Shown in pieces: positions 3,380 to 18,583 of a DNA stretch of 64,000 nt. Source of the stretch: Gracilibacter sp. BRH_c7a (GTDB lineage Bacteria > Bacillota > Desulfitobacteriia > Desulfitobacteriales > Syntrophobotulaceae); the NCBI GenBank assembly GCA_001516055.1, contig LOEZ01000066.1, positions 1 to 64,000 on the forward strand. Reading direction: 5' to 3'. The notes under the pieces are model-generated. The model ran no database searches. It was not told the DNA's origin and was given only the letters and a program-made list of their open reading frames with translations. A program made the position numbers and the translations under genes. The number at the start of each line of letters is the position of its first letter. The stretch's first letter is position 1.

Positions 3380-3481
3380 AATTGTTGCCTCCTGTATAGT
3401 TAATTAAGACTCTTAATTCAAATGGGATTTCTCACCGTCTTAATCTTTTTAGATATTTAATTAAAAAGAAGCAAAAAGTTT

Positions 3482-3511
3482 TTGATTTTAATAATGAAGA
3501 TGTGGTATTAT
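3482..3511 (+). promoter_or_regulatory. Promoter of the TRAP transporter operon
   Basis: TTGATT (3482-3487) and TATTAT (3506-3511) are separated by 18 bases, with TG one base before the -10 (extended -10). Transcription would begin near 3518, leaving an unusually long untranslated leader of about 250 bases before dctP. Confidence 0.55.
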
Positions 3512-3713
3512 ATGACATAATAGCATATTAATATGTAGTAGAGAATATTAAGTATGTTATTATTTGTAGGTAAAAGTAGGACAGTAGTAGATAGTAGGTA
3601 CTGGTTGTTTTAAAAATGTAGAATAGTTAGGACGGTAGGAAATAAGGATGTGGATTAAGCCTTGTATATTCGTGATTAAGTCGCGGATGTTATGGGTGTT
3701 GCACAGCTATATT
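3512..3713 (+). promoter_or_regulatory. Long untranslated leader of the TRAP operon, rich in TAG/GTAG triplets
   Basis: No ORF of note lies here. The first half contains many TAG triplets (for example GTAGTAGAG and ACAGTAGTAG). The second half has a mixed-sequence stretch (GTCGCGGATG, GGGTGTTGCACAGC) directly before an intrinsic terminator. A promoter, a leader of about 200 bases, a terminator and then a gene is the layout of an attenuator or riboswitch. I recognise no known riboswitch core, so the class is open. Confidence 0.4.
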
Positions 3714-3740
3714 AACTCCTATTAGGAGTTTTTTTATTTT
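3714..3740 (+). terminator. Leader terminator before dctP
   Basis: AACTCCT / AGGAGTT, a 7-bp stem with loop ATT, followed by seven T and ATTTT. It lies 30 bases before the dctP start and downstream of the operon promoter, so read-through must be allowed or regulated. Confidence 0.7.
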
Positions 3741-3770
3741 CTAAATATATTAAAAGAAGGGGAGATATAA

Positions 3771-4856
3771 GTGAAAAAAAGCTTTTGGAAATCAATCAAT
3801 GTGAAATTATTAGGAAGAGGTATTTTGCTATTTTTACTGGTATTAGGTTTTGCGTTTGTAACAGGTTGTGGCCAGGCAGCACCGACAACGAATGAACCTC
3901 AAACAGTAGAGCTAAAACTGGCTCACTTCTTTCCTGCCACCCACCCAGCTGAGACCGAGTTAATTCAACCCTGGAGTCAAGCGATCGAGGATGCAACTGA
4001 AGGCAGAGTAAAAGTTACCAGCTACCCGGCACAGACCCTTTCACAGGCTGATGCAGTTTATGACGGAGTAATCAATGGAATCTCTGATTTAGGTCTTTCT
4101 TGTTTTTCCTATACCAGAGGCAGTTTCCCAGTTTTAGAAGTGTTCGAACTACCAGGGATTACCTACGCAAATTCTAAAGTTGCTAGTAAAGTTGCCTGGG
4201 AAGGAATCAAACAGCTAAATCCCCAGGAGGTTCAAGATACAAAGCTACTCATGGTGTTCACAACCGGCCCTGGAGATTTATATACCAAAGTACCTGTACG
4301 CTCACTAGATGATCTGCAAGGATTAGAGTTAAGAGCTACTGGACTTAGCGCAAAGACACTCGAAGCTCTTGGGGCTACTCCGGTTGCCATGGCCCAATCT
4401 GAAGCCTACGAATCTCTAGCTAAAGGAGTAGTTAAAGGAAACTTAGGTCCGGTTGAAGTCCTCGAAGGTTGGAAACAGGCTGAAGTAACTGAGTATCTAA
4501 CTATGACACCATTCCTTTACAATACTTTATTCTTTATAACCATGAATCTAGATCAATGGAACTCTCTGGATCCTAAAGATCAAGCAGCAGTTGAAACAGT
4601 AAGTGAGAAATTCTTTGAAGAGACTGCCATGAGTCTTTGGGATAAACAAAATGAGTCAGCTTTAAAATATGCTGTTGATGAAAAAGGGATGGAAGTTATT
4701 AACCTTTCCCAAGAAGAACAGGAAAAATGGATTAGTTTAGTCAAACCAATTCAGGATGAATATGTTGCCCAAATGAATGAAAAAGGTCAACCAGGACAAG
4801 AAATTCTGGATACAGTGAAAAAGCTCGCCGATCAATATAACAAAGAGTATCAATAA
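3771..4856 (+). CDS. dctP: TRAP transporter solute-binding lipoprotein (DctP family)
   Basis: Extracellular binding protein of a tripartite ATP-independent transporter; family members usually bind carboxylates or other organic acids. A type II signal peptide ends in the lipobox VTGC (lipid-modified Cys about residue 33). The DctP fold follows: LAHFFPATHP, VYDGVINGISDLGL and LQGLELRATG, whose Arg is the position that grips a ligand carboxylate in the family. 361 aa is a usual length. The GTG start at 3771 follows AGGGGAGA by 5-6 bases. First gene of dctPQM; the ligand cannot be named from sequence. Confidence 0.93.
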   Translation: MKKSFWKSINVKLLGRGILLFLLVLGFAFVTGCGQAAPTTNEPQTVELKLAHFFPATHPAETELIQPWSQAIEDATEGRVKVTSYPAQTLSQADAVYDGVINGISDLGLSCFSYTRGSFPVLEVFELPGITYANSKVASKVAWEGIKQLNPQEVQDTKLLMVFTTGPGDLYTKVPVRSLDDLQGLELRATGLSAKTLEALGATPVAMAQSEAYESLAKGVVKGNLGPVEVLEGWKQAEVTEYLTMTPFLYNTLFFITMNLDQWNSLDPKDQAAVETVSEKFFEETAMSLWDKQNESALKYAVDEKGMEVINLSQEEQEKWISLVKPIQDEYVAQMNEKGQPGQEILDTVKKLADQYNKEYQ

Positions 4857-4879: not shown

Positions 4880-5431
4880 TTGAAGCAGTTATCTGGTTTT
4901 GTAAAGAGAGCGAGTAGTATCTTAGACAAATTAGCTGGAATATTTATTTTCTCCGTGATGCTGTTAGTCGTAATAAATATCATTTTGCGAGCGGTTTTCA
5001 AGCAGCCTATTCTAGGAACGTATGAATTAGTTGGTTTTTTAACAGCTATGGGGGTTGGACTGGCCTTGGCTAACTGTGCTTTGCAAAACGGTCATATTGC
5101 CGTAAGTTATATTATGGATCGATTCCCTGAAAAGATTCAATCATTTGTAGATATTTTAGTAAATGCTGCTTCTTTAATTTTTTGGTCGGCAGCTGTCTGG
5201 TACCTTGCACGATATGGTCAAGCGATGAAGCTCAAAGGACTTGTATCGCCATCAGCAGAGATACCTGTTTACCCTTTTATATATTTGGTCGCTTTTGGAC
5301 TCTTGGGGCTTTGTTTGGTCCTGTTATTTAAGTTCATAGTTTCTATTCAGGAAGTCTTGGGACCTCTGCCTCTTACTAAATTATCTCAAGGGTTTAGAGC
5401 TCCAAATATATTAAAGAGGGAAGTAAGATGA
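4880..5431 (+). CDS. dctQ: TRAP transporter small permease (DctQ)
   Basis: Small membrane subunit that pairs with DctM in the sodium-driven TRAP permease. Four TM helices fit the family topology. The family pattern appears in the middle: ELVGFLTAMGVGLALANCAL and NGHIAVSYIMDRFP. The TTG start at 4880 follows GGGGAGGT by 9 bases; no better ATG lies nearby. It starts 23 bases after dctP and its stop codon overlaps the dctM start (ATGA), so translation of Q and M is coupled. Confidence 0.92.
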   Translation: MKQLSGFVKRASSILDKLAGIFIFSVMLLVVINIILRAVFKQPILGTYELVGFLTAMGVGLALANCALQNGHIAVSYIMDRFPEKIQSFVDILVNAASLIFWSAAVWYLARYGQAMKLKGLVSPSAEIPVYPFIYLVAFGLLGLCLVLLFKFIVSIQEVLGPLPLTKLSQGFRAPNILKREVR

Positions 5432-6738
5432 GCGAATTCTTAATCGGACTTTTCGGGATAATATTTTTCTTTGGATTAATAATTCTGCGCATGCCAATAG
5501 CCTATGCTATGGCATTAGTAGGGTTTGTTGGCTTTAGCATCCTAACTTCCATGCCAGCATCTTTGGATATGGTAGCGAAAGAGATTTATAATACTTTTAC
5601 TTCCTATTCTTTAAGTGTTATTGCTATGTTTGTGTGGATGGGCTTTCTGGCATATTATTCAGGAATTGGAACCAGTCTCTATGTTTTTGCCTATAGAATG
5701 ATGGGCCATCTACCTGGTGGTCTGGCAATTGCCACTCAAGCAGCTTGTGCAGTCTTTGGAGCAATATGCGGTTCCAATACCGCTACTGCTGCTACCATGG
5801 CGGCAATTGCCCTGCCCGAGATGGATAAGTATAACTACGACAAGTCATTATCTACCGCCAGTATTGCTGCAGGAGGAGTATTAGGGGTAATGATTCCCCC
5901 GAGTGTTATTTTCATTCTGTACGGTATGGCCACGGAACAGTCTGTGGGCACTTTGTTTATGGCAGGAATTATTCCTGGTATTTTACTAATGTTCTTATAT
6001 ATGCTTACGATATATCTACTGACTTTGCGTAACCCAAGCTTAGGGCCAACCGGACCCAAATCAAGTTGTCGAGAACGAATTAGTTCTCTTAAAGGAGGGC
6101 TGGGAGAAGCCCTGATAGTATTTGCCCTTTCGATTGGCGGTCTTTTTGCCGGTTGGTTTACCCCGACTGAGGCAGGTGCTGTCGGAGCAGGGGGAGTATT
6201 ATTTGTTAGTCTATTAGAGAAGCGGCTTAGTTGGGGAAAGTTAAAAAAGTCGCTAATCGATACCACTCGTACCACGGCAATGATTATGCTAATGATTGCC
6301 GGAGCTATAATCTTTGGCAGGTTTATGGCCATTAGCAGAGTACCGTTTGAACTGGCAAATTTGGTAGGATCTCTGCCCCTACCTCCGTTTGCCATTATGG
6401 GGATGATTCTAGTAATCTACTTTATCCTAGGCTGTTTTATTGACGCTTTAGCCTTAGTTTTACTAACCATACCAATATTCTTCCCAGTGGTAGTTAATGC
6501 CCTGGGGTATGATCCTATTTGGTTTGGAGTGGTTGTAGTCTTAGTAGTAGCCATGGGTGTTATAACCCCTCCGGTAGGGATGAACGTATATATTATTAAA
6601 GGTGTTGCCCCGGAGATTCCTTTAGAAACAATATTTAAAGGTATATGGCCTTTCCTCGGTGCTATAATAGTGTGCATAATTCTGCTAATGATTTTTCCGG
6701 GCATTGCTACTTTCTTGCCTGAATTGCTGACGAGATAA
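5428..6738 (+). CDS. dctM: TRAP transporter large permease (DctM)
   Basis: The 436-aa, about 12-helix transport subunit of the TRAP system. Family motifs include FGAICGSNTATAATMAAIALPEM (about residues 110-132), the GGVLGVMIPPSV loop (about 150-161), FTPTEAGAVGAGG and the C-terminal repeat GVITPPVGMNVYIIKG. It overlaps dctQ by 4 bases. Its last 32 bases overlap the end of the convergent GH84-type gene, so the two transcripts are complementary at their 3' ends. Confidence 0.95.
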   Translation: MSEFLIGLFGIIFFFGLIILRMPIAYAMALVGFVGFSILTSMPASLDMVAKEIYNTFTSYSLSVIAMFVWMGFLAYYSGIGTSLYVFAYRMMGHLPGGLAIATQAACAVFGAICGSNTATAATMAAIALPEMDKYNYDKSLSTASIAAGGVLGVMIPPSVIFILYGMATEQSVGTLFMAGIIPGILLMFLYMLTIYLLTLRNPSLGPTGPKSSCRERISSLKGGLGEALIVFALSIGGLFAGWFTPTEAGAVGAGGVLFVSLLEKRLSWGKLKKSLIDTTRTTAMIMLMIAGAIIFGRFMAISRVPFELANLVGSLPLPPFAIMGMILVIYFILGCFIDALALVLLTIPIFFPVVVNALGYDPIWFGVVVVLVVAMGVITPPVGMNVYIIKGVAPEIPLETIFKGIWPFLGAIIVCIILLMIFPGIATFLPELLTR

Positions 6739-8245
6739 AATCAAGTATTTCTGTTCCAATTTTCAAGTTATTACTCTTAAGGGCTTGAATCTTAGATTCT
6801 AGGTCGTTTTCCATGACTGATTTTTGCGGATCATTCACAGATAAATATAAATAATCCAGGGCTTGGAGAGCAACTTTTCCTTCTTCGCCAAGCAGATTTA
6901 GCCAAGGGTTAATCTCTGTTAGAAGCTCCTTATTACTAATAGTCTGTCTAAGAGAGTTGGGGAGGGTGCTCAACGATTCCAGTTCCTGACGAAGATTAGT
7001 TTCGCTAGCTCCTCGTTGTCCATTTTGGTAATCTTGCCAGAACTGAGCGGTCAGGTCAAGGAAGTATGAATTGATATCATCATTAAGCAGGCTTGGACTT
7101 GAATACAGACAGAATCTTTGGAAAGCTGCTGTATTGACAATTCCTTCAGTGTTTTCAAGTGCTAGCTCCCAGGCTTTCTGAGAATTATAGGAAGTAGGGT
7201 TATACAGATACTGTCCAATTGTTGCTAAGGAAATTTTCGAGGATTCAGGTTGAATCATCGGATTTGCTATTAGTCCACTTACATAGGAAGATAAATCAGG
7301 TGAGCGGTTCTCCAAGGGACCCATAAACAATTGAGGAGCTTTTCGCACCACATATGTATAATCATTTACTGGATAATTGTCCCAGATAAGAGGTTTCCTG
7401 CCGATTAGGTTGGTTACTTGTTGGACTTGATCACTGGTTATCTCTTTGTTTAAAACCCATGAACCTGTCCAAATAACTTGAATTGAAGATTCTAGATAAG
7501 AGCGGATCCCAGACCAATAAGGACTATCATTTAGTCCATAATAGTCTGTCGGGGCAAACCATAGCTTGAATTTAGGGTCTTTTTGTTTTTCTTCCAGGAG
7601 TAATTGATTAGCAAGATCAATATGGGCTAAGTGGTAATCTGAGCCGTAGACCTTTTCATCAATTGGTTTCAAAGAATGTTCAACATCATCAAAAGAAAGC
7701 ATAAATGTCTGTACACCTATTGATTGCAATTGTTCAAGCTTATTTCTTAAACGCTGTACATCCGAGTCAGAAGTAAAAGTAATGGAATTTGCTATCATGC
7801 TTGAAGTTAAAGTTTCACCGGGGAGGGGTGCTGGAATACCAGGAGAAATTGAGTAAACAAAATCTATACCATTTTTCTCAGCACTCTTGATTAATTGCTT
7901 CATCTGAGAAAGACGTAAATCTGAGTATAGGTCTCCCCATTGTGTTCGCTGATAAGGATCATCTTTAGGTGCATAGATATAGGTATTAAAGTGATTCTGG
8001 CTCATGAATTCAAGCATTTTCATTCGTTGTCCCATAGTCCATGGTTCGCCATAAAAACCTTCGATTACCCCGCGGATAGCGAAAGTATCACTGAGAACAT
8101 CCTCTTTAGGCTTAGAATCAGAATCAATCGGTTGCTGGTCATTAGGGGTAACATTCGGAGGTCCCGATTGATCGAGTTGACCCGGAATAAAGATCATTCC
8201 AAGAACTATAATTATGATTAGAATTAATATATTTTTCTTTTTCAT
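6707..8245 (-). CDS. Membrane-anchored GH84-type beta-N-acetylglucosaminidase domain protein
   Basis: Predicted extracytoplasmic glycosidase of the O-GlcNAcase/hyaluronidase family, which removes GlcNAc by substrate-assisted catalysis. After an N-terminal TM anchor (about residues 5-22) and a Pro/Asp-rich linker, the catalytic domain starts with RGVIEGFYGEPW (about 58-69). It continues with NTYIYAPKDDPYQRTQW and the acidic pair in MLSFDDVEHS, matching the GH84 catalytic Asp-Asp. KLWFAPTDYYG and WTGSWV, then IWDNYPVND, also match. A helical C-terminus of about 130 residues follows. AAAGGAAAG lies about 5 bases before the ATG. Substrate unknown; peptidoglycan or host-type GlcNAc are possible. 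Confidence 0.85.
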   Translation of the reverse strand: MKKKNILILIIIIVLGMIFIPGQLDQSGPPNVTPNDQQPIDSDSKPKEDVLSDTFAIRGVIEGFYGEPWTMGQRMKMLEFMSQNHFNTYIYAPKDDPYQRTQWGDLYSDLRLSQMKQLIKSAEKNGIDFVYSISPGIPAPLPGETLTSSMIANSITFTSDSDVQRLRNKLEQLQSIGVQTFMLSFDDVEHSLKPIDEKVYGSDYHLAHIDLANQLLLEEKQKDPKFKLWFAPTDYYGLNDSPYWSGIRSYLESSIQVIWTGSWVLNKEITSDQVQQVTNLIGRKPLIWDNYPVNDYTYVVRKAPQLFMGPLENRSPDLSSYVSGLIANPMIQPESSKISLATIGQYLYNPTSYNSQKAWELALENTEGIVNTAAFQRFCLYSSPSLLNDDINSYFLDLTAQFWQDYQNGQRGASETNLRQELESLSTLPNSLRQTISNKELLTEINPWLNLLGEEGKVALQALDYLYLSVNDPQKSVMENDLESKIQALKSNNLKIGTEILDFISSAIQARK

Positions 8246-8361
8246 TCTTTTTCTTTCCTTTGGATTGAAGTAAAGATAATACCACAGGTTACTCTTATTA
8301 TGTCACTAGTAAATATAACAAATGTACTTGTAATCTTTGGAGTACATTTTCACTCATTTCA

Positions 8362-8796
8362 TTATTTATTGGTATTCATGTTTTGGTCGAAAGGCTTCTT
8401 CTTAATAGATGTTAAGAGAGAATATCCAAACAACATACTGCCAAACAATCTTACCTCAGGACTTACGATTGTCAGAATACCTGGAAATTTTCCTATTATA
8501 GGTGAAAGGAATAACAGAATAAGTCCAATGCCGATAAATAATGTTGGCAAGCCAATGGCTAAGGCTCTGGTCCAATCATAAGTTACTTTTCCCGATTGCC
8601 TAAGATTGCTAACGAGTTGTGGGATAGCCAACATAAACCCAATGATTATTGGAGAAAGGGAATTATAGATAGCTAAAGGAATTAGATCAAAATTTCTTCC
8701 TCCATAATCCTTTAAGGAATAAGAAATTTTAGCTAGGACAATTAAGCAAACAAGGAATAAAAGAGTGTATAAAAAATACGATAAAAATCTTTTCAT
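8362..8796 (-). CDS. Hypothetical four-helix membrane protein
   Basis: No family recognised. The 144 residues contain an N-terminal TM helix (about 5-27) and three more hydrophobic segments (about 42-62, 78-100 and 105-130), with a Lys/Asn-rich cytoplasmic tail. A strong RBS (GGAGGTGA, 5 bases before the ATG) supports translation. It stands alone, 116 bases upstream of the glycosidase gene on the same strand, so the two may be cotranscribed; no terminator was seen between them. Confidence 0.65.
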   Translation of the reverse strand: MKRFLSYFLYTLLFLVCLIVLAKISYSLKDYGGRNFDLIPLAIYNSLSPIIIGFMLAIPQLVSNLRQSGKVTYDWTRALAIGLPTLFIGIGLILLFLSPIIGKFPGILTIVSPEVRLFGSMLFGYSLLTSIKKKPFDQNMNTNK

Positions 8797-8846
8797 TTTT
8801 CACCTCCGCTTTTTATTTAGCATAACCCTTAGAAGTTTTGAAATCA

Positions 8847-8900
8847 ATAAATATAATCATTACTTTGTCACGCAGGTAGCAGTGTAATGATTATATTTAT
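8847..8900. repeat. 17-bp perfect inverted repeat
   Basis: ATAAATATAATCATTAC at 8847-8863 is repeated in inverse complement at 8884-8900. The 20-base spacer (TTTGTCACGCAGGTAGCAGT) is more GC-rich than the arms. The arms lack a T-tract, so it is not a simple terminator. It could be an operator pair or the remains of a small mobile element. Confidence 0.6.
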
Positions 8901-9188
8901 GTATATTTATTTTATTGGAGATATTATCATAAGCCCAAAGAAATAAACTTGAAGAGATTATAACAAAAAAATAGACAATAGGAAGTAGAAAAAATAGTAT
9001 TATTTAAATCTTATACATTAAAATTTTCTTGCTTCAAAGACAATAAAACTAGGAACCCTTAATTTTCTAAGGGGACTTAGTTTTATATTTATAAATAATA
9101 TTTAAATATTTATTTAAATATTATTTAATACCTGAATTAAAAGTGTTGGTTATATAAAATTATTATTAAAAATGGTGAAATATACAAA

Positions 9189-9217
9189 TTGACGTTATAA
9201 TTTGCGCGTGATAACAT
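9189..9217 (+). promoter_or_regulatory. Promoter of the camelysin-like/CBM gene cluster
   Basis: TTGACG (9189-9194), a 17-base spacer and TAACAT (9212-9217). An alternative -10, TATAAT at 9196-9201, overlaps it but lacks a good -35. Either start gives a leader of roughly 75-95 bases before the ATG at 9299. Confidence 0.5.
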
Positions 9218-9298
9218 AAAAAACGAATTTGTGTTTAGAGTAATTATAAATAAATGGTAAAATTTATACTAATTATGGGGAGAGGAGGAGATGAGCGC

Positions 9299-10249
9299 AT
9301 GAAAAAAGCTGTTCTTTTTTTAACTTTATTATTAATAATGGTTAGTTCTATTGTTGCAGGAACACTTGCTATGTATACAGTTTCCATAGATAAACTTGCT
9401 GAAGGCAGCGTTGTGGCCAAAGAATTTATCTTTGTCGGCGAAGGGACGGATACTTTCCAGCAGGGCATAAAAATTGCACCGTCGGAGACTGTTGCCTGGC
9501 AATTCAAAGTCAAAAATTATGAAAATCATGTAATTTCAGAAACTGCTATGTATTACAAGCTGACATTCAACGTCTTGGCGTCAGGCGGTAAACAGGCAAT
9601 CGAACCGTTGACCGTTACTGTTAAAGATCCGAACGGCCAGATATTAAACAGGGTTACCGGAGTGGGAACCTTTGATGTCCTGGATGCCTTTCCGTTGTCG
9701 GCAAATGGTCAGGAGAAAGGCTATGTGGTAGAGATACATTGGCCGGATGACGATGCCGATATCAACTACGCAGGCAGCCATTACGGAACCACAGTTAATG
9801 TCGATGCCATCGCTTCCCAGGTCCCGTTCAGCGGGACAAATCCTCCGCAGCCGAAGCAGATTAACGTGAAATATGAGACTACAGTACCTTGGCAAAATGG
9901 GCATAGCGGTATTTATAAGTATGATTATAAAGTCACTATCACCAATAACTCCGCTGAACCGATAGAAGATTGGACCATCGCCTTTAACCTTGCTGACGAT
10001 AAACTGACCAGTGCCTGGAATGCCATTTTAGTGTCCGGTTCGCCTCAGGGATCCTACACCTTTGTCAATCCGGCCTATAACAATCCCGCTACAGACCATA
10101 TTCTGCCCGGTCAAAGTGTATCTTTTGGAGGTCATGCTCAGGGAATGGGCACGACAGCCATAAACAATATCAGTATAGGCGGAAGCAATACAAGTCTTAT
10201 CACTAACATTGACCTGACTTGTGAATTTGGCAAGCCATCCCTGAACTAG
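9299..10249 (+). CDS. Camelysin/TasA-like exported protein with a C-terminal CBM2-like domain
   Basis: Predicted cell-surface or fibre-type protein that can bind polysaccharide. The start is the ATG at 9299, 8 bases after GGAGGAG; an earlier ATG at 9254 lacks an RBS. The signal peptide ends in IVAGTLAMYT, the form processed by SipW-type peptidases. Residues about 30-180 form a camelysin/TasA-like beta domain (EGSVVAKEFIF, then KIAPSETVAWQFKVKNYE). Residues about 190-310 look like a CBM2-type module: EDWTIAFNLADDKLTSAWNA, then the YNNPATDHILPGQSVSFGG block. A paralogue without the CBM lies downstream. This fusion is unusual; polysaccharide binding is inferred. Confidence 0.8.
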   Translation: MKKAVLFLTLLLIMVSSIVAGTLAMYTVSIDKLAEGSVVAKEFIFVGEGTDTFQQGIKIAPSETVAWQFKVKNYENHVISETAMYYKLTFNVLASGGKQAIEPLTVTVKDPNGQILNRVTGVGTFDVLDAFPLSANGQEKGYVVEIHWPDDDADINYAGSHYGTTVNVDAIASQVPFSGTNPPQPKQINVKYETTVPWQNGHSGIYKYDYKVTITNNSAEPIEDWTIAFNLADDKLTSAWNAILVSGSPQGSYTFVNPAYNNPATDHILPGQSVSFGGHAQGMGTTAINNISIGGSNTSLITNIDLTCEFGKPSLN

Positions 10250-10306
10250 GGCTGGTCAGGATGATGACCCAGACCGAGATTGCGAGTGAATGAAGGAGGA
10301 GGGAAG

Positions 10307-10444
10307 ATGAAGACGAAAATATTATTAATTCTGGCGTTAAGCTTCACTCTATTGGTTTCTCTAAGCGTCAGTACGCTTTCCAATTATACGAGCGTTTCTA
10401 GTTTCGGTACAACTATCAGTCCTCAGAACCAATCACATAATTAA
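10307..10444 (+). CDS. 45-residue mini-protein with a SipW-type signal peptide
   Basis: ATG at 10307 follows a strong RBS (GGAGGAGGGAAG). It encodes MKTKILLILALSF, a hydrophobic core and then STLSNYT, matching the GTLAMYT processing region of both flanking genes. Only about 20 mostly Ser/Thr/Gln/Asn residues follow, ending in SPQNQSHN. It lies between the two camelysin-like genes, in the same direction, 57 bases after one stop and 43 before the next start. It may be a secreted peptide or a remnant of a third camelysin-like gene cut down to its signal sequence. Too short for routine gene calling, but the RBS and signal similarity support it. Confidence 0.6.
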   Translation: MKTKILLILALSFTLLVSLSVSTLSNYTSVSSFGTTISPQNQSHN

Positions 10445-10487
10445 AGTGATAGACGGAATTATAATAAATTAAATTTTGGAGGTAAAT

Positions 10488-11018
10488 ATGAAAAAACTAC
10501 TAATTTCTTTTGCTCTTATATTACTTTTTTCTACATCTCTAATCGCAGGGACTCTTGCTATGTATACGACCACCATTGACGATATTGCCGAGGGCAGCGT
10601 GGTGGCTAAAGAATTCATCCTGTTGGAAAGCGGGACGGATACCTTTACGGAAAATGTAAAAATAGCTCCGGACGAAACAGTAGAGTATGACTTCAGCGTT
10701 AAAAACTATGACGGCAGCGTAGTAAGTGAGACCGCCATGGATTTAGGTTTGAAAATCGATGTTCTGGCTGCGGACGGTAAAGGCGTAATCGCACCGTTAG
10801 TCGTGACTGTTAAGAACTCAGATGACGAGACGGTTGGCACCTTGACCACCAATGGCACCATTGAATTTGCAGACGAATTTGAACTCAGTACCGACGGTCA
10901 GGAAAAAACCTTTACCGTATCGGTGAACTGGCCCAGTGATGACGATGTAGACATCGAATATGCCGGAGCTAATTATGGTACAGCCCTGCAAGTGGCTGTG
11001 ACCGGAACCCAGAAATAA
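10488..11018 (+). CDS. Camelysin/TasA-like exported protein
   Basis: 176-aa exported protein of the CotN/camelysin/TasA type, a likely SipW substrate and matrix or coat component. The signal peptide ends LIAGTLAMYT, and the mature part repeats the family blocks of the upstream gene (EGSVVAKEFIL, then KIAPDETVEYDFSVKNYDGS, and INYAG/IEYAG before NYGT). The two proteins are clearly paralogous over about 175 residues; this one ends where the CBM begins in the other. The start is the ATG at 10488, 5 bases after GGAGG. A strong terminator follows. No metallopeptidase motif was seen. Confidence 0.85.
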   Translation: MKKLLISFALILLFSTSLIAGTLAMYTTTIDDIAEGSVVAKEFILLESGTDTFTENVKIAPDETVEYDFSVKNYDGSVVSETAMDLGLKIDVLAADGKGVIAPLVVTVKNSDDETVGTLTTNGTIEFADEFELSTDGQEKTFTVSVNWPSDDDVDIEYAGANYGTALQVAVTGTQK

Positions 11019-11040
11019 AATTCAACATTGATTACTAAGA

Positions 11041-11074
11041 ATGCTGCCCGAATATTTCAGGGCAGCATTTTTTT
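11041..11074 (+). terminator. Terminator closing the camelysin-like gene cluster
   Basis: ATGCTGCCC / GGGCAGCAT, a 9-bp perfect stem with a 10-base loop, ending in seven T. It separates the two secreted-protein genes from sipW, which has its own promoter. Confidence 0.9.
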
Positions 11075-11114
11075 ACTATAAGCAAAATCAGAGTCATGTT
11101 AGATGTTTCTAATT

Positions 11115-11143
11115 TTTTGCGTATGGTTCGGACATAATATAAT
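11115..11143 (+). promoter_or_regulatory. Promoter of the sipW operon
   Basis: TATAAT at 11138-11143 with TTTTGC 17 bases upstream (11115-11120). The transcript would start near 11150, which rules out the ATG at 11103 as the sipW start and favours the one at 11172. Confidence 0.5.
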
Positions 11144-11171
11144 GCAATCTACCAATAAAGAGGTCGGATTA

Positions 11172-11714
11172 ATGTCGTCAACAAAGTATACAACTCCGGA
11201 ACAAATAGCAGAAATGCGTCGGGAACTACTGCACGAAAAACATAAATTACATAAGTTACAAGGTCAGGATCTCTCCTGGAAAAGTCGTCTGCCTTCAGGA
11301 AAATCTATGATACAACTCAGCAGCTGGATTGTTTTTTCGGCACTTGTTCTACTGCTTGTTACGTCGATTATATCCATCAATCTTGCAAAGAACAGGGGAG
11401 AAATCCCCAATATTTGGGGATTTCAACTTTTTTCTGTAGAGTCAGGCAGTATGGAGCCTACACTTCCGATTGGATCGCTTATTGTAAGCCGAATTCCTAA
11501 AGAGCCCGGAAGTCTTACCATTGGCGACATCGTTACTTTCAGAACCATATCAGGTATTATTGTAACTCATCGAATTATTGAGGTTATCTTCAATTATGAT
11601 GGGACCGTTGCTTACCGCACAAAAGGGGATAATCCCAAAAATTCCCCCGATCCAGAACTGCTGACCGAAGACAGGGTGATTGGGTTATTGGTGGCTAAAA
11701 TACCTTTAACCTGA
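11172..11714 (+). CDS. sipW: Signal peptidase I of the ER/SipW type
   Basis: Membrane-bound serine protease that removes the signal peptides of TasA/camelysin-like proteins. One TM helix (about residues 50-72) precedes the catalytic domain. SGSMEPTLPIGS gives the nucleophile Ser93, and THRI gives His133, which replaces the Lys of ordinary bacterial signal peptidases as in SipW and eukaryotic SPases. KGDNPKNSPDPE carries the conserved Asp residues. The protein stops soon after the catalytic fold and lacks the C-terminal helix that many SipW proteins have. RBS AGAGGT lies about 7 bases before the ATG. First gene of a three-gene operon and the only active-looking protease of the locus. Confidence 0.92.
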   Translation: MSSTKYTTPEQIAEMRRELLHEKHKLHKLQGQDLSWKSRLPSGKSMIQLSSWIVFSALVLLLVTSIISINLAKNRGEIPNIWGFQLFSVESGSMEPTLPIGSLIVSRIPKEPGSLTIGDIVTFRTISGIIVTHRIIEVIFNYDGTVAYRTKGDNPKNSPDPELLTEDRVIGLLVAKIPLT

Positions 11715-11737
11715 TATAGAATGAATGGGAGCAAAAT

Positions 11738-12703
11738 ATGATGAATCTTCCTGAACACGTTGTATTTATGGAAAAAGTTCAATCCGTTGAACATATTGTC
11801 CATCAGGGTAAAGAACCCCAGCGTGTCTTAAAAGAGATTAGCTTGTTAATAAGAAGAGGGCAAGTATGGGGATTTAACGGTTCATCTCGCCTGGAAGTAA
11901 AGCTTTTGTTAGAAATTATAGCCAACATCAGACCGTATAACAGCGGCCGATGCGTGTTAATTGAACGAGGCATGCCCCAGCATAAAAGAATAATTCTGAA
12001 CCACGTTTTTTATATTGGTAGTTCAGAAATGATGTATAACAATATGAATGTCCTGGAATTCCTGATGTTTGTGACGGCCAAGTCCAAAATCAACAAAGTT
12101 GAACTCCAGGAACAGATTTTTGAATTCCTTATTGACAGCGGACTGGGACATATTTCTTTGACTTCAAACAATCTGCTGACCCAGGAAGAAAAGGCAGTTA
12201 TCTTATTAACTGCTGCTGCATACTCAAATAGCCTGATAATCGTCTTTAACCTGCCTGAATATGAATTCGACGAAATTCTAGTCCCAGCGATCGCTAAAAT
12301 AGCAGCTTGGATAAGTCAAAAGGGCAAAACCATCATACTCGGAACCACAGACTGTCTTTTAATCGAAAAGGCTTGTTCCCATACGGGCATATTATTTAAT
12401 GGCAAAATTATCTACGCCGACACGGTGGAAGACTTCCGTCAGAAGTTTGATAAAGTTGAAGTGATAGTTAGTGATAAAAATATAATCGCTATGATGGATA
12501 TCCTTGCTATATTACTCCCGGACCATAAGCTGTCCATCAAAAATAACCGCCTTATGATTAGTCGTAGTGGTTCTGCTGAAAGTGACCCCGGTATGATTTA
12601 CCAGATGATAACGTCGTTTGGTTGGATACCAGAACGACTGGAAGTCAATCCTAAAACCGTGCAAAATGCCTATGAGGAGCTTATTCAGCAGCATGATTTA
12701 TAG
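11738..12703 (+). CDS. Degenerate ABC-ATPase-like protein (probable pseudo-ATPase)
   Basis: The 321 residues follow the layout of an ABC-2 exporter ATPase, but every nucleotide-binding motif is worn away. The Walker A position reads GFNGSSRLEV (residues 45-54), with Arg51 in place of Lys and no Ser/Thr after it. The signature motif reads LLTQE. Walker B is IIVFNLPEYEFD, with Asn171 and Leu172 where Asp-Glu should be. The switch His is Asp (GTTDC). The frame is long and open, so this looks like a kept pseudoenzyme rather than a dead gene. It lies 23 bases after sipW and overlaps the next gene by 11 bases. It may act as a scaffold or regulatory partner of that membrane protein. Confidence 0.75.
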   Translation: MMNLPEHVVFMEKVQSVEHIVHQGKEPQRVLKEISLLIRRGQVWGFNGSSRLEVKLLLEIIANIRPYNSGRCVLIERGMPQHKRIILNHVFYIGSSEMMYNNMNVLEFLMFVTAKSKINKVELQEQIFEFLIDSGLGHISLTSNNLLTQEEKAVILLTAAAYSNSLIIVFNLPEYEFDEILVPAIAKIAAWISQKGKTIILGTTDCLLIEKACSHTGILFNGKIIYADTVEDFRQKFDKVEVIVSDKNIIAMMDILAILLPDHKLSIKNNRLMISRSGSAESDPGMIYQMITSFGWIPERLEVNPKTVQNAYEELIQQHDL

Positions 12704-14099
12704 GGATAATTATTTTAGAAAAGAACTCCGGCAAGCCTACACAGAAAACAGAACAAGTAAACGCAGAAAAATCTCTTCAGCTCTTTTCCTGGGACTTTTT
12801 TCATTTGCCCTATTCTTTGTGCTGCAAACCATACAGGAAAGTGTCTTGGCTGATATTGTGCCGCAAATCCTGCAGCCAAGTTTCTTTTCCACCATCACCA
12901 TCTATATTCATATTGCTTTTATTTTCAACACAGTTTTTTTTATTTTCTATTATGACTACCTTTTTTTTGCCGAAATCAGGAGAAATTCCTGGTATCTTTT
13001 AATCCAAATGGGTTATCGACCTATCATAATGCTATTTTCTAAACTTTCTGCTCTTTTGTACTCTGTATTTCTGGTCTACAGTGGGGGTTTTCTTTTTACG
13101 ATCTTTCTCACAATTTTCCTGAAATACACATTAATACTGGCCTATATGCCCACCCTTTACTTGGCAGGTCTTACCGACATTTTCTTGATTAGTATCCTCG
13201 CATTAACTTTTTCCCTATATACTCAAACAGTAGTCAACGCACGATATTGGATCTTTCTATCTGCTATCCTTATTCTGATCTTGAAAATAACGCTGAGACA
13301 GTATAATATCCTTTCCAATCGAGTATCCATGCAGAACTTGTATAACTTGTTCGATCTCAGCCTTTCTCCGTACATGGCGGTCGGATTTGGGATCATGGTA
13401 ATCTGCTGTCTGACATGCCTGATACGGGCTAAAAACTTAGCCAAGTATTATTCTCTTAATTCCAGCCAATTTTCTCTGCCGGCAAATGCCGCTGTGATCT
13501 ATCTCGATTCCAAGACAGGAAAGCAGATATTAGTTGGCAACAGAAAATCACCATTATGGCATAGTAAGATTATTGCCACTACAACTACCGTATTTCTGAT
13601 TGTATTCATCTGCGCCGCCCTTGTATTTAACGTATTCGTTATTCTGATTAATACCTCTACGCCAGGCCAGGAGGTAAGTATCCGTGGGGTAATCCCCTTT
13701 GTCTTCCGTTCGGCTACCATGGAACCTGAGATTAGGCTAAACGACTTGGCATATTTCCAAAAAATAGACAACCAATACCCGGTTGCTGAAGGGGATATCA
13801 TCCTTTTTAGAGAAGATAACTTGGTATATGTGGAAAGAGTTATTGAAAAAACAGGAAAACGGCTAACAGTAGATATAGATAAATATCCGCCGATGTCTCA
13901 ACCAGGAGCGATGCTGAAAACAGTGCCAAGGGAATACGTACAGGGCATCTACGTTGGAAGGAACCGCTGGTTGGGGGCCCTGATTTTATTTGCCAATACT
14001 ATTATCGGAAGGCTGCTCTTACTGCTAGTTCCTGCTATTCTATTGTTTTATCATGCGCAGATCTATGGGTATTTTAAGAAGGATAAATCAAAAGGCTGA
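12693..14099 (+). CDS. ABC-2-like membrane protein fused to an inactive signal-peptidase-like domain
   Basis: 468 aa. Residues about 28-245 hold six hydrophobic helices in the arrangement of an ABC-2 type permease. A second membrane segment (about 293-320) leads into a C-terminal domain that mirrors SipW. GVIPFVFRSATMEPEIRLND has Thr342 where SipW has the catalytic Ser; the SipW THRI His position is VERV (Glu381). A final TM helix (about 428-453) follows. Both catalytic residues are gone, so peptidase activity is unlikely. The ATG at 12693 overlaps the upstream gene; GAGGAG lies 13 bases before it, so translation is probably coupled. The fusion suggests a complex with SipW or its substrates. 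Confidence 0.75.
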   Translation: MIYRDNYFRKELRQAYTENRTSKRRKISSALFLGLFSFALFFVLQTIQESVLADIVPQILQPSFFSTITIYIHIAFIFNTVFFIFYYDYLFFAEIRRNSWYLLIQMGYRPIIMLFSKLSALLYSVFLVYSGGFLFTIFLTIFLKYTLILAYMPTLYLAGLTDIFLISILALTFSLYTQTVVNARYWIFLSAILILILKITLRQYNILSNRVSMQNLYNLFDLSLSPYMAVGFGIMVICCLTCLIRAKNLAKYYSLNSSQFSLPANAAVIYLDSKTGKQILVGNRKSPLWHSKIIATTTTVFLIVFICAALVFNVFVILINTSTPGQEVSIRGVIPFVFRSATMEPEIRLNDLAYFQKIDNQYPVAEGDIILFREDNLVYVERVIEKTGKRLTVDIDKYPPMSQPGAMLKTVPREYVQGIYVGRNRWLGALILFANTIIGRLLLLLVPAILLFYHAQIYGYFKKDKSKG

Positions 14100-14243
14100 T
14101 GAGTAGTCGAGTTTAGACCAATATATGATTGCTTAAGTCAAAAATATCTGTTAAGATATGAATGTGAAAAAAAGTATTAAGTGATTTTAAGGAAAAGTAT
14201 TAATCAAAGCTAATAGAGTCGTAAAATTTACCATGTATCTGCT

Positions 14244-14340
14244 CGCACATAATCGTGTTTTGGGGATACAAGGCTTGTTACTTTACCTGACCGCAAGGTA
14301 TACCAAGCGGGAAGGCGCGCAGCGGTATGTGTGTTTTTTA
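14244..14340 (+). ncRNA. Structured leader RNA candidate upstream of the hyd cluster
   Basis: Nested pairings are visible: CGCACATA (14244-14251) with TATGTGTG (14326-14333); GCTTG (14273-14277) with CAAGC (14304-14308); and TACCT (14284-14288) with AGGTA (14296-14300) around the loop GACCGCA. The outer stem is followed at once by TTTTTT. The shape is that of a riboswitch or attenuator placed before a gene set. It does not match any riboswitch core I can recognise. Function unknown. Confidence 0.45.
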
Positions 14341-14362
14341 TTGTACATTGTTTTGCCGTGTT

Positions 14363-14405
14363 GCTCCCTTTCTGTATAAATCTGCGGAAGGGGAGCTTTT
14401 ATTTT
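14363..14405 (+). terminator. Intrinsic terminator in the hyd leader
   Basis: GCTCCC / GGGAGC, extended by TT/AA across one bulged G, with a 17-base loop and a TTTTATTTT tail. It lies about 80 bases before the first hyd gene and downstream of the structured segment, as expected for transcription attenuation. Confidence 0.65.
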
Positions 14406-14482
14406 GAATATTTATAAATGTAATTATGAATTAAGTCCTGAAATTGAATAGTAAATTGATTTAGGAAATGGAGAGAAAGCGG

Positions 14483-14728
14483 ATGGATAAACGAATTGGC
14501 ATTGTAGGCATTGTGGTTGAAGACCTGTCCTGTGCAGAGCGGGTTAATTCTGTTTTACATGAATATGCAGGACTGATTGTCGGGAGGATGGGAATTCCCT
14601 ACAGAGAACGTGGAGTATCGGTTATATCTTTGATTGTCGACGGCAGCAATGATGACATCAGTGCCCTAACAGGTAAACTGGGTAGAATCCAGGGGGCCTC
14701 GGTTAAGTCCATGGTTACTAAGAATTAA
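14483..14728 (+). CDS. TM1266-family iron-only hydrogenase system putative regulator
   Basis: 81-aa ACT/ferredoxin-like fold protein of the family found next to hydEFG genes and thought to regulate them. The typical sequence is visible: RIGIVGIVVEDL at the N-terminus, then VNSVLHEYAGLIVGRMGIPY and SVISLIVDGSNDDISALTGK. The start is taken at the ATG at 14483, 8 bases after GGAGAG; the ATG at 14468 has no RBS. It is 80 bases upstream of hydE and likely cotranscribed. Regulation is the family's proposed role and is not shown by this sequence. Confidence 0.9.
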   Translation: MDKRIGIVGIVVEDLSCAERVNSVLHEYAGLIVGRMGIPYRERGVSVISLIVDGSNDDISALTGKLGRIQGASVKSMVTKN

Positions 14729-14808
14729 AAAGAGCGTTGTGATTCTATGTTAAGTTTTCACTAGAAATCAAACTATCAAGCACATCCGTGTTTACAGGAG
14801 TGTGACCA

Positions 14809-15888
14809 ATGCAACTTATATCTAAAAACGATTCTGAATTTACCCGATATCTGAATACAGCCACTAAGAAAGAACTTTCCGAGATAACCCGGCATTTCTG
14901 TATGGAAGCATCACCGGAGGAGTTGTCTGCGCTTGCTTACTGTGCCAACAGACTGCGGGAAATCCATTATGGTCGTAGGGTCTATTTCCGGGGTCTAATA
15001 GAATTTTCCAACCACTGCCGAAAAGACTGCTATTACTGCGGTATTCGCAAAAGCAATTTAAACGCTCGCCGCTACCGTCTATCGGCAGAGGAAATTCTTA
15101 ATTGCTGTCAAAATGGCTACAACCTTGGGTTTCGCACCTTTGTACTGCAAAGCGGCGAGGATAGCTATTTTACGGATGAAAGACTGTGCGCCATCGTGAC
15201 TGCAATCAAACAACGTTTTCCGGATTGTGCGCTGACGCTTTCAATAGGCGAGCGCAGCCGTGATTCCTATCAACGGCTTTATGATGCAGGTACCGACCGC
15301 TACCTTTTGCGCCATGAAACGGCCGATGAGGCACACTACGGAAATCTCCATCCGCCCGTGATGAGTCTCCGTAACCGCAAACAGTGTCTGTCTAGCCTAA
15401 AAGAAATAGGTTATCAGGTTGGGGCGGGCTTGATGGTAGAGTCTCCGTATCAAACTTTTGATACCTTGGCCGAAGATCTGATATTATTGCGGGAACTTAA
15501 ACCGCATATGATTGGTGTCGGCCCTTTTATTCCGCACAGGGATACAAGGTTTGCAGGACTTGACACGCCTTCCTCCGAGAGAACGCTCGTTCTGCTGTCG
15601 CTGGTCCGAATCATGTTGCCTAAAGCCCTGCTGCCCTCTACCACAGCGCTTGGTACTATCGATGCCCTAGGGCGGGAAAAAGGCCTGAAAGCCGGTGCCA
15701 ACATTGTAATGCCTAACTTATCTCCCGTAGAGAATCGCTCGGATTATTCGCTCTACGATAATAAGATATGTACGGGAGAGGAAGCGGCAGAGTGTCTCCA
15801 CTGCCTGACAAACCGCATCGTGTCCGCCGGATATGAGCCTGATTTTTCTCGTGGGGATCATGTGGATTTGTTAAAAAGGGAGGGATAA
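14809..15888 (+). CDS. hydE: [FeFe] hydrogenase maturase HydE (radical SAM)
   Basis: Radical SAM enzyme needed to build the diiron subcluster of [FeFe] hydrogenase. The CX3CX2C cluster motif is C70-C74-C77 (CRKDCYYCG). Further blocks of the TIM barrel are visible: FVLQSGEDSYF, LSIGERS, RYLLRHETADEAHYGNLHP, GAGLMVESPYQT, and GVGPFIPHRDTRFAG. 359 aa is normal for the family. The gene and its neighbour hydF have a visibly GC-richer codon choice than flanking genes, which suggests a different origin. It lies 5 bases before hydF. The hydrogenase itself is not in the window. Confidence 0.95.
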   Translation: MQLISKNDSEFTRYLNTATKKELSEITRHFCMEASPEELSALAYCANRLREIHYGRRVYFRGLIEFSNHCRKDCYYCGIRKSNLNARRYRLSAEEILNCCQNGYNLGFRTFVLQSGEDSYFTDERLCAIVTAIKQRFPDCALTLSIGERSRDSYQRLYDAGTDRYLLRHETADEAHYGNLHPPVMSLRNRKQCLSSLKEIGYQVGAGLMVESPYQTFDTLAEDLILLRELKPHMIGVGPFIPHRDTRFAGLDTPSSERTLVLLSLVRIMLPKALLPSTTALGTIDALGREKGLKAGANIVMPNLSPVENRSDYSLYDNKICTGEEAAECLHCLTNRIVSAGYEPDFSRGDHVDLLKREG

Positions 15889-15893
15889 TTAGT

Positions 15894-17138
15894 ATGCAAA
15901 GTATGAATGAAACTCCAATGGCCAACCGCTTTACCATCGGTCTCTTCGGCAGGCGCAACGCCGGAAAATCTTCTCTGATCAATGCTCTTGCCGGTCAGCC
16001 AGTTGCTGTTACCTCCGAAGTGGCGGGTACAACGACTGACCCAGTTTACAAAGCTATGGAACTTTTGCCCCTGGGGCCAATTGTTTTAATCGATACTGCC
16101 GGACTTGATGACACCGGTGAGCTTGGTGCATTGCGGATTGAAAAAACCTACGAAGTGCTGCGCAAAACAAACCTAGCACTCGTGGTTGTCGATGCCAGAG
16201 ACGGCATTACGAAGTTTGAGACGGAATTTATTTATGAATTAGTCCAGCGGAAAATCCCATCTGTCTGCGTTTTAAACAAATGCGACAGGTATATTGCAGA
16301 TGAAGAAAAGGTAAAAGGCATAAGAGAGCTTATCAAAATACCGGTGGTAAGCGTAAGTGCGCAGGATAGTACGGGAATCGACCAACTCAAAGAACAGATT
16401 ATCGCCAGCTCAAATTATGAGGATACTCAGCCTGAGCTGGTTGGAGACCTGATTAGGGCAGGGGATATTGCTGTGCTTGTCACTCCCATTGATTCAGGGG
16501 CACCTAAGGGGCGACTGATTTTGCCTCAGCAGCAAACCATCCGTGCTATTATGGAAAACGATGCAGTGGCGATCGTTGCCAAAGAGCATGAGCTTAGACT
16601 AACGCTGGAACGGTTAAAGGCTCCTCCTGCCATTGTCATTACAGATTCGCAGGCCTTTTTTAAGGTTTCCGCTGACACGCCCAGGGGTGTTCCCCTGACG
16701 TCCTTTTCTATTCTGTTTGCGCGGCAGAAGGGAGATCTTGCGGAAATGATACGGGGTATCAAACGCATCGAGCAGCTTAAGGCGGGAGACAAGGTACTCA
16801 TTGTCGAGGGATGCACCCATCATCGTCAGGCAGATGACATCGGAAAAGTAAAAATTCCACGCTGGATAAAACAGGTTACGGGGGGTGATATCGCGTTTGA
16901 ATGGGCTTCCGGCGCTCATTACCCGAAGGATATCACGCAGTATGCTGTGATTGTGCATTGCGGTGGCTGTATGCTTAACCGCAGAGAGATGCAGTACCGG
17001 GTAGAAAAAGCACGCGACCAAGGCGTTTATATCACAAATTACGGGATACTCATTGCTTATGTGGAAGGCATCCTGCCGCGTGCTCTGCAGCCTTTTCCCG
17101 AGGCAAGGCTTGCTCTTGATGCTAACGAGCTGCAGTAA
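15894..17138 (+). CDS. hydF: [FeFe] hydrogenase maturation GTPase HydF
   Basis: Scaffold GTPase that receives the diiron precursor made by HydE and HydG and loads it into the hydrogenase. The N-terminal G domain has the P-loop GRRNAGKSS (residues about 19-27), switch GTTTDPVYK, G3 DTAGLDD and G4 NKCD. The C-terminal Fe-S region has EGCTHHRQ and HCGGCMLNRREMQ, the three-cysteine set of the family. AGGGAGG lies 9 bases before the ATG. 414 aa matches HydF. It sits between hydE and hydG with very short gaps, so the three are surely one operon. Confidence 0.95.
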   Translation: MQSMNETPMANRFTIGLFGRRNAGKSSLINALAGQPVAVTSEVAGTTTDPVYKAMELLPLGPIVLIDTAGLDDTGELGALRIEKTYEVLRKTNLALVVVDARDGITKFETEFIYELVQRKIPSVCVLNKCDRYIADEEKVKGIRELIKIPVVSVSAQDSTGIDQLKEQIIASSNYEDTQPELVGDLIRAGDIAVLVTPIDSGAPKGRLILPQQQTIRAIMENDAVAIVAKEHELRLTLERLKAPPAIVITDSQAFFKVSADTPRGVPLTSFSILFARQKGDLAEMIRGIKRIEQLKAGDKVLIVEGCTHHRQADDIGKVKIPRWIKQVTGGDIAFEWASGAHYPKDITQYAVIVHCGGCMLNRREMQYRVEKARDQGVYITNYGILIAYVEGILPRALQPFPEARLALDANELQ

Positions 17139-17161
17139 TAACTTTGAAAGGGGCCACTAAT

Positions 17162-18583
17162 ATGTACAACGTAAAATCTAGAGATTCCAATGAATTTATC
17201 GATGATATAGAAGTATTATTATCCATCGCCGAGGCCAAAGAGATTGTTAAGCAAAAAACGGAAATTGACCGGATTTTGACCAAGGCCAGGGAGTGTAAGG
17301 GCCTTTCACATAAAGAAGTAGCTGTGTTATTGGAAATTGACGATGATGAAACCCTGAATAAAATGTATCAAATAGCGAGAGAAATCAAGGAAAAAATTTA
17401 TGGAAAAAGGATTGTGCTGTTTGCACCGCTGTATCTATCCAACTATTGTGTGAATAATTGTCAATACTGTGGCTACAAATGTTCCAACAAAATCGGTAGG
17501 CATAAGCTTACCCAAGAGGAATTACGGGAGGAAGTACGGGCTCTGGAAGCTATGGGGCACAAACGGCTGCTACTTGAGGCTGGTGAGGACGACAAAAATT
17601 GTCCGATCGATTATATCTTGGAGTGCATTCAAACCATCTACAACGAACAATTCGATAATGGTGCTATCCGTAGAGTCAATGTTGATATAGCTGCGACCAC
17701 CGTGGAAAACTATCGAAAACTGAAAGACGCCAAAATCGGTACTTATATTCTGTTTCAAGAAACCTACCATAAGCCTACCTATCTTGGCTTACACAGTGGA
17801 CCCAAGCGCAATTACGAGTGGCATACCGAGGCCATGGATCGGGCGATGCAGGGCGGCATTGACGATGTGGGGATTGGTTCCCTGTACGGCTTGTACGATT
17901 ACCATTATGAAACAGTAGCAATGATGATGCATGCTGAGCATTTGGAAGCTGCTTACGGGGTAGGCCCCCATACCATTTCCTTTCCAAGGCTGCTGCCAGC
18001 GGAAGGCATTGATTATGACAGATTTCCACTGGTCAAAGACCGAGATTTCAAAAAAGTGGTAGCTGCTATGCGCTTGGCGGTCCCTTACACAGGAATGATT
18101 GTTTCTACGCGAGAGGGAATTGATTTCCGCAAAGAACTTCTGGAAATCGGTATGTCCCAAATGAGTGCCGGTTCCTGCGTTGGAGTCGGAGGATACGCTG
18201 AGAGGGAGATTGTGAATGAAACCGGTGTTGAGGAAAAACCGCAATTCTATCTTGCAGATCATAGAAAACCTGCTGAAGTAATCAAGTGGCTGGTCAGGGA
18301 TGGTTATATTCCAAGCTACTGCACGGCATGCTACCGCCAGGGCAGGACGGGAGATCGCTTCATGCCGCTTGCTAAATCAGGGCAGATCGGAAATTACTGT
18401 CTGCCAAATGCACTTCTTACCTTTGAAGAATATCTACAAGACTATGCAGACGATGAATTTCAGGATATCGGCCGGAAACTAATCGATGATGAGATTCTGA
18501 ACGTTCCCGATGAAAAACAAAAGGTAACGGCACTAGATTATCTAAACCGAATTCGCAGTGGAGAAAGAGACCTGAGGTTTTAA
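17162..18583 (+). CDS. hydG: [FeFe] hydrogenase maturase HydG (tyrosine lyase)
   Basis: Radical SAM enzyme that cleaves tyrosine to give the CO and CN ligands of the H-cluster. The SAM cluster motif CX3CX2C is in NYCVNNCQYCGYKC (about residues 95-108). The C-terminal auxiliary cluster motif is CTACYRQGRTGDRFM with a further Cys about 22 residues later (GNYC). The start is the ATG at 17162, 8 bases after AAAGGGG; a TTG at 17144 overlaps the RBS and is unlikely. 473 aa fits the family. Its end lies 5 bases from the end of the convergent azlD gene. Confidence 0.95.
   Translation: MYNVKSRDSNEFIDDIEVLLSIAEAKEIVKQKTEIDRILTKARECKGLSHKEVAVLLEIDDDETLNKMYQIAREIKEKIYGKRIVLFAPLYLSNYCVNNCQYCGYKCSNKIGRHKLTQEELREEVRALEAMGHKRLLLEAGEDDKNCPIDYILECIQTIYNEQFDNGAIRRVNVDIAATTVENYRKLKDAKIGTYILFQETYHKPTYLGLHSGPKRNYEWHTEAMDRAMQGGIDDVGIGSLYGLYDYHYETVAMMMHAEHLEAAYGVGPHTISFPRLLPAEGIDYDRFPLVKDRDFKKVVAAMRLAVPYTGMIVSTREGIDFRKELLEIGMSQMSAGSCVGVGGYAEREIVNETGVEEKPQFYLADHRKPAEVIKWLVRDGYIPSYCTACYRQGRTGDRFMPLAKSGQIGNYCLPNALLTFEEYLQDYADDEFQDIGRKLIDDEILNVPDEKQKVTALDYLNRIRSGERDLRF

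Follow-up and report, generated by a model that had tools for sequence, protein, structure and literature searches.

The window analysed here, a stretch of 64,000 nucleotides from contig LOEZ01000066.1 of Gracilibacter sp. BRH_c7a, carries on its forward strand, at 9299-14099, six genes that we call A to F after their order (A-B-C-D-E-F; Table 1): A and C encode proteins resembling TasA and camelysin, B a preprotein of 45 residues, D a SipW-type signal peptidase, and E and F enzyme-like proteins that lack the motifs of activity. An earlier note on the same DNA had recognized a tandem locus with precisely these limits, beginning where A begins and ending with F. The locus is real and conserved, and is a variant of the TasA/SipW kind, not a separate kind. 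The gene set and its conservation, the families of A, C and D, the catalytic losses in E and F and the selection acting on the genes can all be read from sequence comparison.

The six genes and their relatives

Profile comparison and shared motifs place A and C in the TasA family as divergent members. With an hhalign probability of 100%, the TasA-like regions of the two mature proteins can be aligned across 151 columns, which agrees with their earlier description as paralogous TasA/camelysin-like proteins. The Pfam M73 model (PF12389), which finds no match in this genome at E 0.001, is too narrow for the pair, and profile comparison was therefore needed: the full-length C profile matched M73 proteins from other genomes at 95% over 145 columns, and mature C, with the signal removed, still matched at 67%, against at most 1% for column-shuffled controls (n = 60). 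Several motifs are colinear in A, C and the M73 proteins, namely GT-x-A-x-[YF] at the signal, I-x-P, Y-[QA]-G and a Gln in the last strand. Tyr26, Pro61 and Gln175 are invariant in C (the Gln is Gln174 in A) and align with the M73 proteins; this aromatic, Pro and Gln are the counterparts of F29, P62 and Q232 of TasA, the most conserved portion of its subunit interface (PMC10151520). Sequence comparison of C with the PDB gave matches at chance level only; its predicted structure is a beta sandwich (pLDDT 75), and C is the probable main fibre subunit.

A has a SipW-type signal with a predicted cut after residue 24 and ends in a CBM2 domain, the sole one in this genome, so that the CBM2-like module which the earlier note saw on one paralogue is borne out by a Pfam match (PF00553; Table 1). 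The domain is retained in distant A homologues, with conservation of the aromatics W198, W240 and Y260, which we take to be the sugar-binding face of the module from what is generally known of CBM2. D, the only intact SipW in this genome, matches NF046067 (4.9e-25, below the equivalog cut-off) and also TIGR02228; its catalytic Ser93, His133 and Asp are invariant in 28 of 28 homologues, a complete triad that points to an active SipW, as had been predicted.

The set recurs well beyond this genome. When 151 genomes were searched with F as query, 17 of them, not counting the genome of the window, had a full-length relative; all six genes stand in identical order in 16 of these, and the seventeenth (L042) has every gene except B. 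Scanning named genomes brought in 11 further loci with the same genes where the contig permits, among them loci from Lutispora, Anaerobacterium chartisolvens, metagenome-assembled genomes of Oscillospiraceae and Ruminococcaceae, and HGW Firmicutes, and the gene order is common to relatives from several clostridial families; C is inverted in one locus (L058), and one short contig (L055) shows E and F only. Because the loci were collected through F, its presence is given by construction, but that of the other genes is not: E occurs in all 28 other genomes found with F, D is absent just from one truncated contig, and each of the 26 loci compared has D, E and F together with one or more TasA-like genes. 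In the reverse test, which covered 398 genomes from across the phylum, F was present in 4, and, apart from one weak match, the close homologues of C came from those 4 as well; M73 proteins are far commoner than F (38 of 299 genomes, most of them without F).

No flanking gene recurs in all 26 loci, and we reject a constant neighbour as an explanation of the locus; two of the neighbours, an ABC-F protein (near 11 of the loci) and amino-acid ATP-binding cassette (ABC) genes (near 7), are both ordinary. In all six genes the ratio of nonsynonymous to synonymous substitution rates (dN/dS) falls mostly between 0.05 and 0.25, with a few pairs higher, which indicates that each of them is under purifying selection. 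Because gene order is kept between genomes and each gene is under such selection, the locus is more than a chance arrangement. The earlier note had staked its proposal on co-occurrence of the genes in other genomes; in this check, fixed beforehand, A, C, D, E and F were found together wherever the contig was long enough, and the proposal was thus not refuted.

Some relatives depart from the common layout. In one genus (L040, 2765-6919; L041, ~5200-9560), genes that by their sequence resemble GerA-type spore-germination genes lie between C and D, and the A-B-C and D-E-F halves, being separable, thus form two modules. L056 has a duplicated C (3105-4414), and B was not found there. L043 has an F fragment of 51 residues (8050-8199, genome G061; 59% identity) with the rest of the locus absent nearby; this is probably a decayed remnant, and the locus can thus be lost.

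Table 1. Features of the locus, in window coordinates.
Feature	Position	Strand	Basis
Promoter-like element of the A-B-C unit: TTGACG, 17 nt, TAACAT, with TG just ahead of TAACAT	9189..9217	+	Consensus scan; block conserved in most close relatives
A: TasA/camelysin-like subunit, SipW-type signal, C-terminal CBM2	9299..10249	+	Homology, profile comparison, interface motifs
CBM2 domain of A, residues 189-295	9863..10183	+	PF00553, 9.1e-11
B: 45-residue preprotein, signal peptide plus ~20 residues, candidate minimal TapA (donor-strand peptide)	10307..10444	+	Homologues, residue pattern, selection
Mature B peptide (predicted): NYTSVSSFGTTISPQNQSHN	10382..10441	+	Alignment with A, C and relatives
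C: TasA/camelysin-like, probable main fibre subunit	10488..11018	+	M73 profile comparison, interface motifs, beta-sandwich model
Intrinsic terminator between C and D	11040..11075	+	-17.6 kcal/mol, T tract
Promoter-like element of the D-E-F unit: CTAATTTTTT...GGACATAATA	11109..11139	+	Conserved in relatives
D: SipW-type signal peptidase	11172..11714	+	NF046067, TIGR02228; invariant catalytic residues
E: inactive ABC ATPase homologue	11738..12703	+	Homology, lost ATP motifs, dN/dS
F: ABC-2-like membrane protein with a fused, inactive SipW-like domain	12693..14099	+	Homology, residues, model
Inactive SipW-like domain of F	13599..14063	+	NF046067 match; Thr342 in place of Ser, Glu381 in place of His

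The small protein B and the inactive pair E-F

B, described earlier as a mini-protein sharing the signal of A and C, does have a signal peptide of their type (93%), after which about 20 residues are left, with no folded immunoglobulin-like domain. Of the 26 loci in which both A and C are found, 23 have a B gene, and the mature length of the product is 15-26 residues in 18 loci, 40 in one and 83-230 in four, the four long forms carrying extra sequence after the same strand. Counted from the aromatic at position 0 (Tyr or Phe, 23/23), this strand has Val at +3 (17/23), Phe at +6 (20/23) and Ile, Val or Met at +10 (23/23), a pattern that we compared with the donor strand of TasA, where F29, I32 and F39 occupy positions 0, +3 and +10. 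At the cleavage site predicted from alignment with A, C and relatives, the aromatic falls at P2'; TasA has one there too, and this feature marks it out for SipW (PMC10269814).

In Bacillus subtilis, secretion of TapA residues 44-57 alone suffices for proper biofilm (PMC10151520). TapA was also the best NCBIfam match, at the signal and N-terminus, for four of the seven B proteins tested, and all of these matches lie far below the cut-off; B thus does not belong to the TapA family, but it may do what the essential part of TapA does, consisting as it does of a signal and a candidate donor strand. Since B is a conserved gene, the earlier statement that this locus has no TapA has to be changed: full-length TapA is absent, but a conserved candidate for its essential part is present. 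Long B proteins in three loci (L059, 1083-1850; L063, 4704-5255; L067, 4886-5458) have a second conserved region (GN/GD...EPG/EQGTKI...GFY) that found no convincing match in Pfam and may be an unnamed domain comparable to the folded part of TapA.

E and F are enzyme-like proteins conserved in an inactive form, as the earlier note had proposed. E resembles ABC ATPases of the GldA/DrrA type over ~280 residues, aligns with the ABC ATPase of PDB 1vpl (1.7e-14) and is distantly similar to the ATPases of lantibiotic-protection and bacteriocin-export transporters; Walker A is missing from every homologue that covers the region, the Asp of Walker B is replaced by Asn171 in 29 of 29, and the H-loop is lost. 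F has about six transmembrane helices followed by a SipW-like domain set between two further ones, and its C-terminal third matches NF046067, the SipW model, at 1.3e-11. In this domain Glu381 replaces the catalytic His in 29 of 29 homologues and Thr342 the catalytic Ser in 28 of 29, the Asp being kept (Thr342, Glu381, Asp394 and Asp396 are all invariant or nearly so); the sole homologue with Ser at the former nucleophile position (L056, 6618-8102) still has Glu in place of His. The model of F is poor (pLDDT 62), and we therefore use as a hint only its weak best PDB matches, which are to the ABC-2 permeases NosY and PmtCD for the first part and to LexA, SpsB and SipA for the second. E and F are better taken together, as what used to be the ATPase half and the permease half of an ABC-2 transporter; their genes overlap in every relative in which both ends can be read. 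From its residues, the additional domain of F appears to be a dead signal peptidase like SipA, a likeness of kind and not of descent from SipA: the Streptococcus pyogenes protein has a signal peptidase fold with a conserved peptide cleft and no catalytic residues, and is essential for pilus polymerisation (PMC4049620).

Transcription signals and surroundings

The earlier note had the first half of the locus closed by a strong terminator, and a hairpin of that kind does separate C from D (Table 1); most relatives have a terminator there by identical criteria. Upstream of A, a block ACAAATTGAC...TGnTATTAT (TTGAC type), which corresponds to the promoter-like element at 9189-9217, is conserved in most close relatives. 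The separate promoter claimed for the second half fared less evenly: the sigma-70 consensus scan gave nothing above chance, and the support comes entirely from comparison between genomes, in which a block CT[GA]ATTTTTT...GG[AG]CATAATA upstream of D is kept in close relatives, with GG[AG]CATAATA present in all 16 close relatives that have the full A-F set (background pieces, 2.7%). Taken together, these elements suggest that A-B-C and D-E-F are two transcription units. The GG[AG]CATAATA at 11130-11139, like its counterparts in relatives, looks closer to a sporulation sigma-factor -10 (CATA type) than to the standard -10. Many carriers of the locus are spore formers. A search of 6000-18000 against Rfam gave no match to an RNA element. 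In Clostridium perfringens, the terminator inside sipW-bsaA is read through (PMC7395162).

Downstream, at 14468-18583, lies a [FeFe]-hydrogenase maturation set (a TM1266-type regulator, HydE, HydF and HydG), which is not conserved beside the locus in relatives. On the other side, near the CBM2-bearing locus, 6707-8245 (reverse strand) encodes a beta-N-acetylglucosaminidase-like protein with a signal-like N-terminus (NF041654, 1.2e-63, below the cut-off), of which no homologue was found near the locus in relatives. Anti-phage defence was rejected as a candidate function, PADLOC giving no match.

A proposed TasA-type fibre and its alternatives

The literature that we searched neither describes this six-gene set nor names SipW together with Desulfosporosinus, and known systems resemble the locus in part. 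The tapA-sipW-tasA operon of B. subtilis (PMC10151520, PMC9674648) likewise combines SipW and one or more subunits of the TasA family with a small secreted protein, from whose N-terminus the first strand could come; here, in contrast, there are two TasA-like subunits, one of them with CBM2, the TapA-like partner amounts to about a signal plus a strand, and the inactive ABC-2/SipW-like pair E-F is added, these being the extra pseudoenzymes of the earlier note. Bacillus cereus (sipW-calY1-bc_1280-calY2, or TasA-CalY-CapP; PMC10151520, PMC13082335) shares the two camelysins, SipW and a SipW-processed helper other than TapA, but CapP, which has repeats and belongs to DUF4047, does not resemble B, and neither a CBM2 nor an E-F pair is described there. 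The C. perfringens sipW-bsaABCRSD operon (PMC7395162) is alike in making a clostridial SipW-dependent protein fibre and in its internal terminator; it includes the two-component genes bsaR and bsaS, and neither a CBM2 subunit nor an E-F pair is described for it. SipA of streptococcal pilus islands (PMC4049620) is also encoded with fibre genes and also has the fold of a signal peptidase but none of the catalytic residues; it belongs to the Ser-Lys type, stands as a protein by itself and serves sortase-built pili, whereas the domain in F is SipW-like and fused to a permease. Finally, E is like the ATPase half of ABC-2 exporters such as NosFY and PmtCD, and the first part of F like their permease (on weak fold matches), but E-F has no ATP-binding motifs and bears an extra SipW-like domain on its permease.

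We read the locus as encoding a TasA-type fibre that grows by donor-strand exchange, is started by B, processed by D and organized by the inactive E-F at the membrane, and put the probability of this reading at about 0.58. A, B and C would be exported with their SipW-type signals, which D would cut, freeing the N-termini; these steps follow from knowledge of the families, and we infer the later ones. The strand of B would supply the missing strand of the first subunit and so start the fibre, the role of the TapA N-terminus in B. subtilis, after which each subunit's own strand would complete the next, with C as the main subunit. A would display its CBM2 along the fibre or at one end, and because of this module the fibre could bind polysaccharide; the surface fibre with such a ligand proposed earlier is plausible. 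E-F, unable to pump or to cut, would bind signal peptides, preproteins or D and keep the subunits together, as an assembly platform or anchor at the membrane, a role for which SipA is the precedent. More tentatively, and with less confidence than we place in the fibre as a whole, E-F may be a dedicated, energy-free platform, a transporter and a signal peptidase that have both become binding proteins. It would keep subunits, whether still uncut or freshly cut, next to SipW and anchor the fibre base, working with B as a peptide-sized starter; if true, donor-strand exchange in Gram-positive bacteria would have its first usher-like component.

Several observations weigh against this interpretation. 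B was not found in 3 of the 26 loci with A and C, scores 12.8 bits against TIGR04087, where the cut-off is 80 (its relatives score similarly), and has a strand that beyond the first residues is not clearly similar to that of A and C; the TapA 44-62 peptide is only weakly active in vitro (PMC10151520). The signals of A, B and C go unrecognised by TIGR04088, which has no match in this genome, and TasA is not among the PDB matches listed by Foldseek for the C model. TasA and BsaA fibres elsewhere, moreover, assemble without a complex like E-F.

A, C and D might make a fibre while E-F acts as a regulator, a membrane sensor or inhibitor of SipW activity or of matrix gene expression. D, E and F would form a unit apart from the fibre genes, behind a conserved promoter-like element that is not shared with them, the SipW-like domain could pair or compete with D, and ABC-type complexes such as FtsEX can signal instead of transporting (PMC11627006); FtsEX, however, requires an active ATPase, whereas E lacks the ATP motifs, and no output domain or regulator gene recurs nearby, so that we consider such a regulator unlikely. 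Still less probable is a secreted B that acts as a signal or an antimicrobial peptide, with E-F as its export, immunity or receptor complex and the fibre genes as mere neighbours. B is indeed very short and secreted, and the distant relatives of E include the lantibiotic-protection and bacteriocin-export ATPases already mentioned, but the Sec-type signal of the A/C kind, the position between fibre genes, the strand pattern that is kept and the 60-200 extra residues that follow B in four relatives all speak against this; E has lost its ATP motifs, the six genes stay together across families, and no receptor kinase or regulator recurs.

Comparably improbable is a pair that is still alive, in which F cuts through an unusual Thr-Glu-Asp site or E-F transports with power from another ATPase. 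The near-invariance of Thr342, Glu381, Asp394 and Asp396 is unusual for a useless site, and the Thr is a Ser in one relative (L056); but catalysis of the SipW type uses Ser and His, and the latter is Glu in 29 of 29. As for another ATPase, the locus has no constant ABC ATPase besides E; an ABC-F protein lies close to 11 of 26 loci, and E stays with F, their genes overlapping.

Fibres of the TasA type grow by donor-strand exchange. The locus bears on how they are started, organized and attached to the cell, especially outside Bacillus, and isolates two parts of that question, namely a natural protein that has hardly anything besides its signal and its strand, and two pseudoenzymes in a conserved complex that is tied to fibre genes. 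To these it adds a probable fibre subunit that may bind polysaccharide, in anaerobic clostridia, for example Desulfosporosinus, for which attachment matters.

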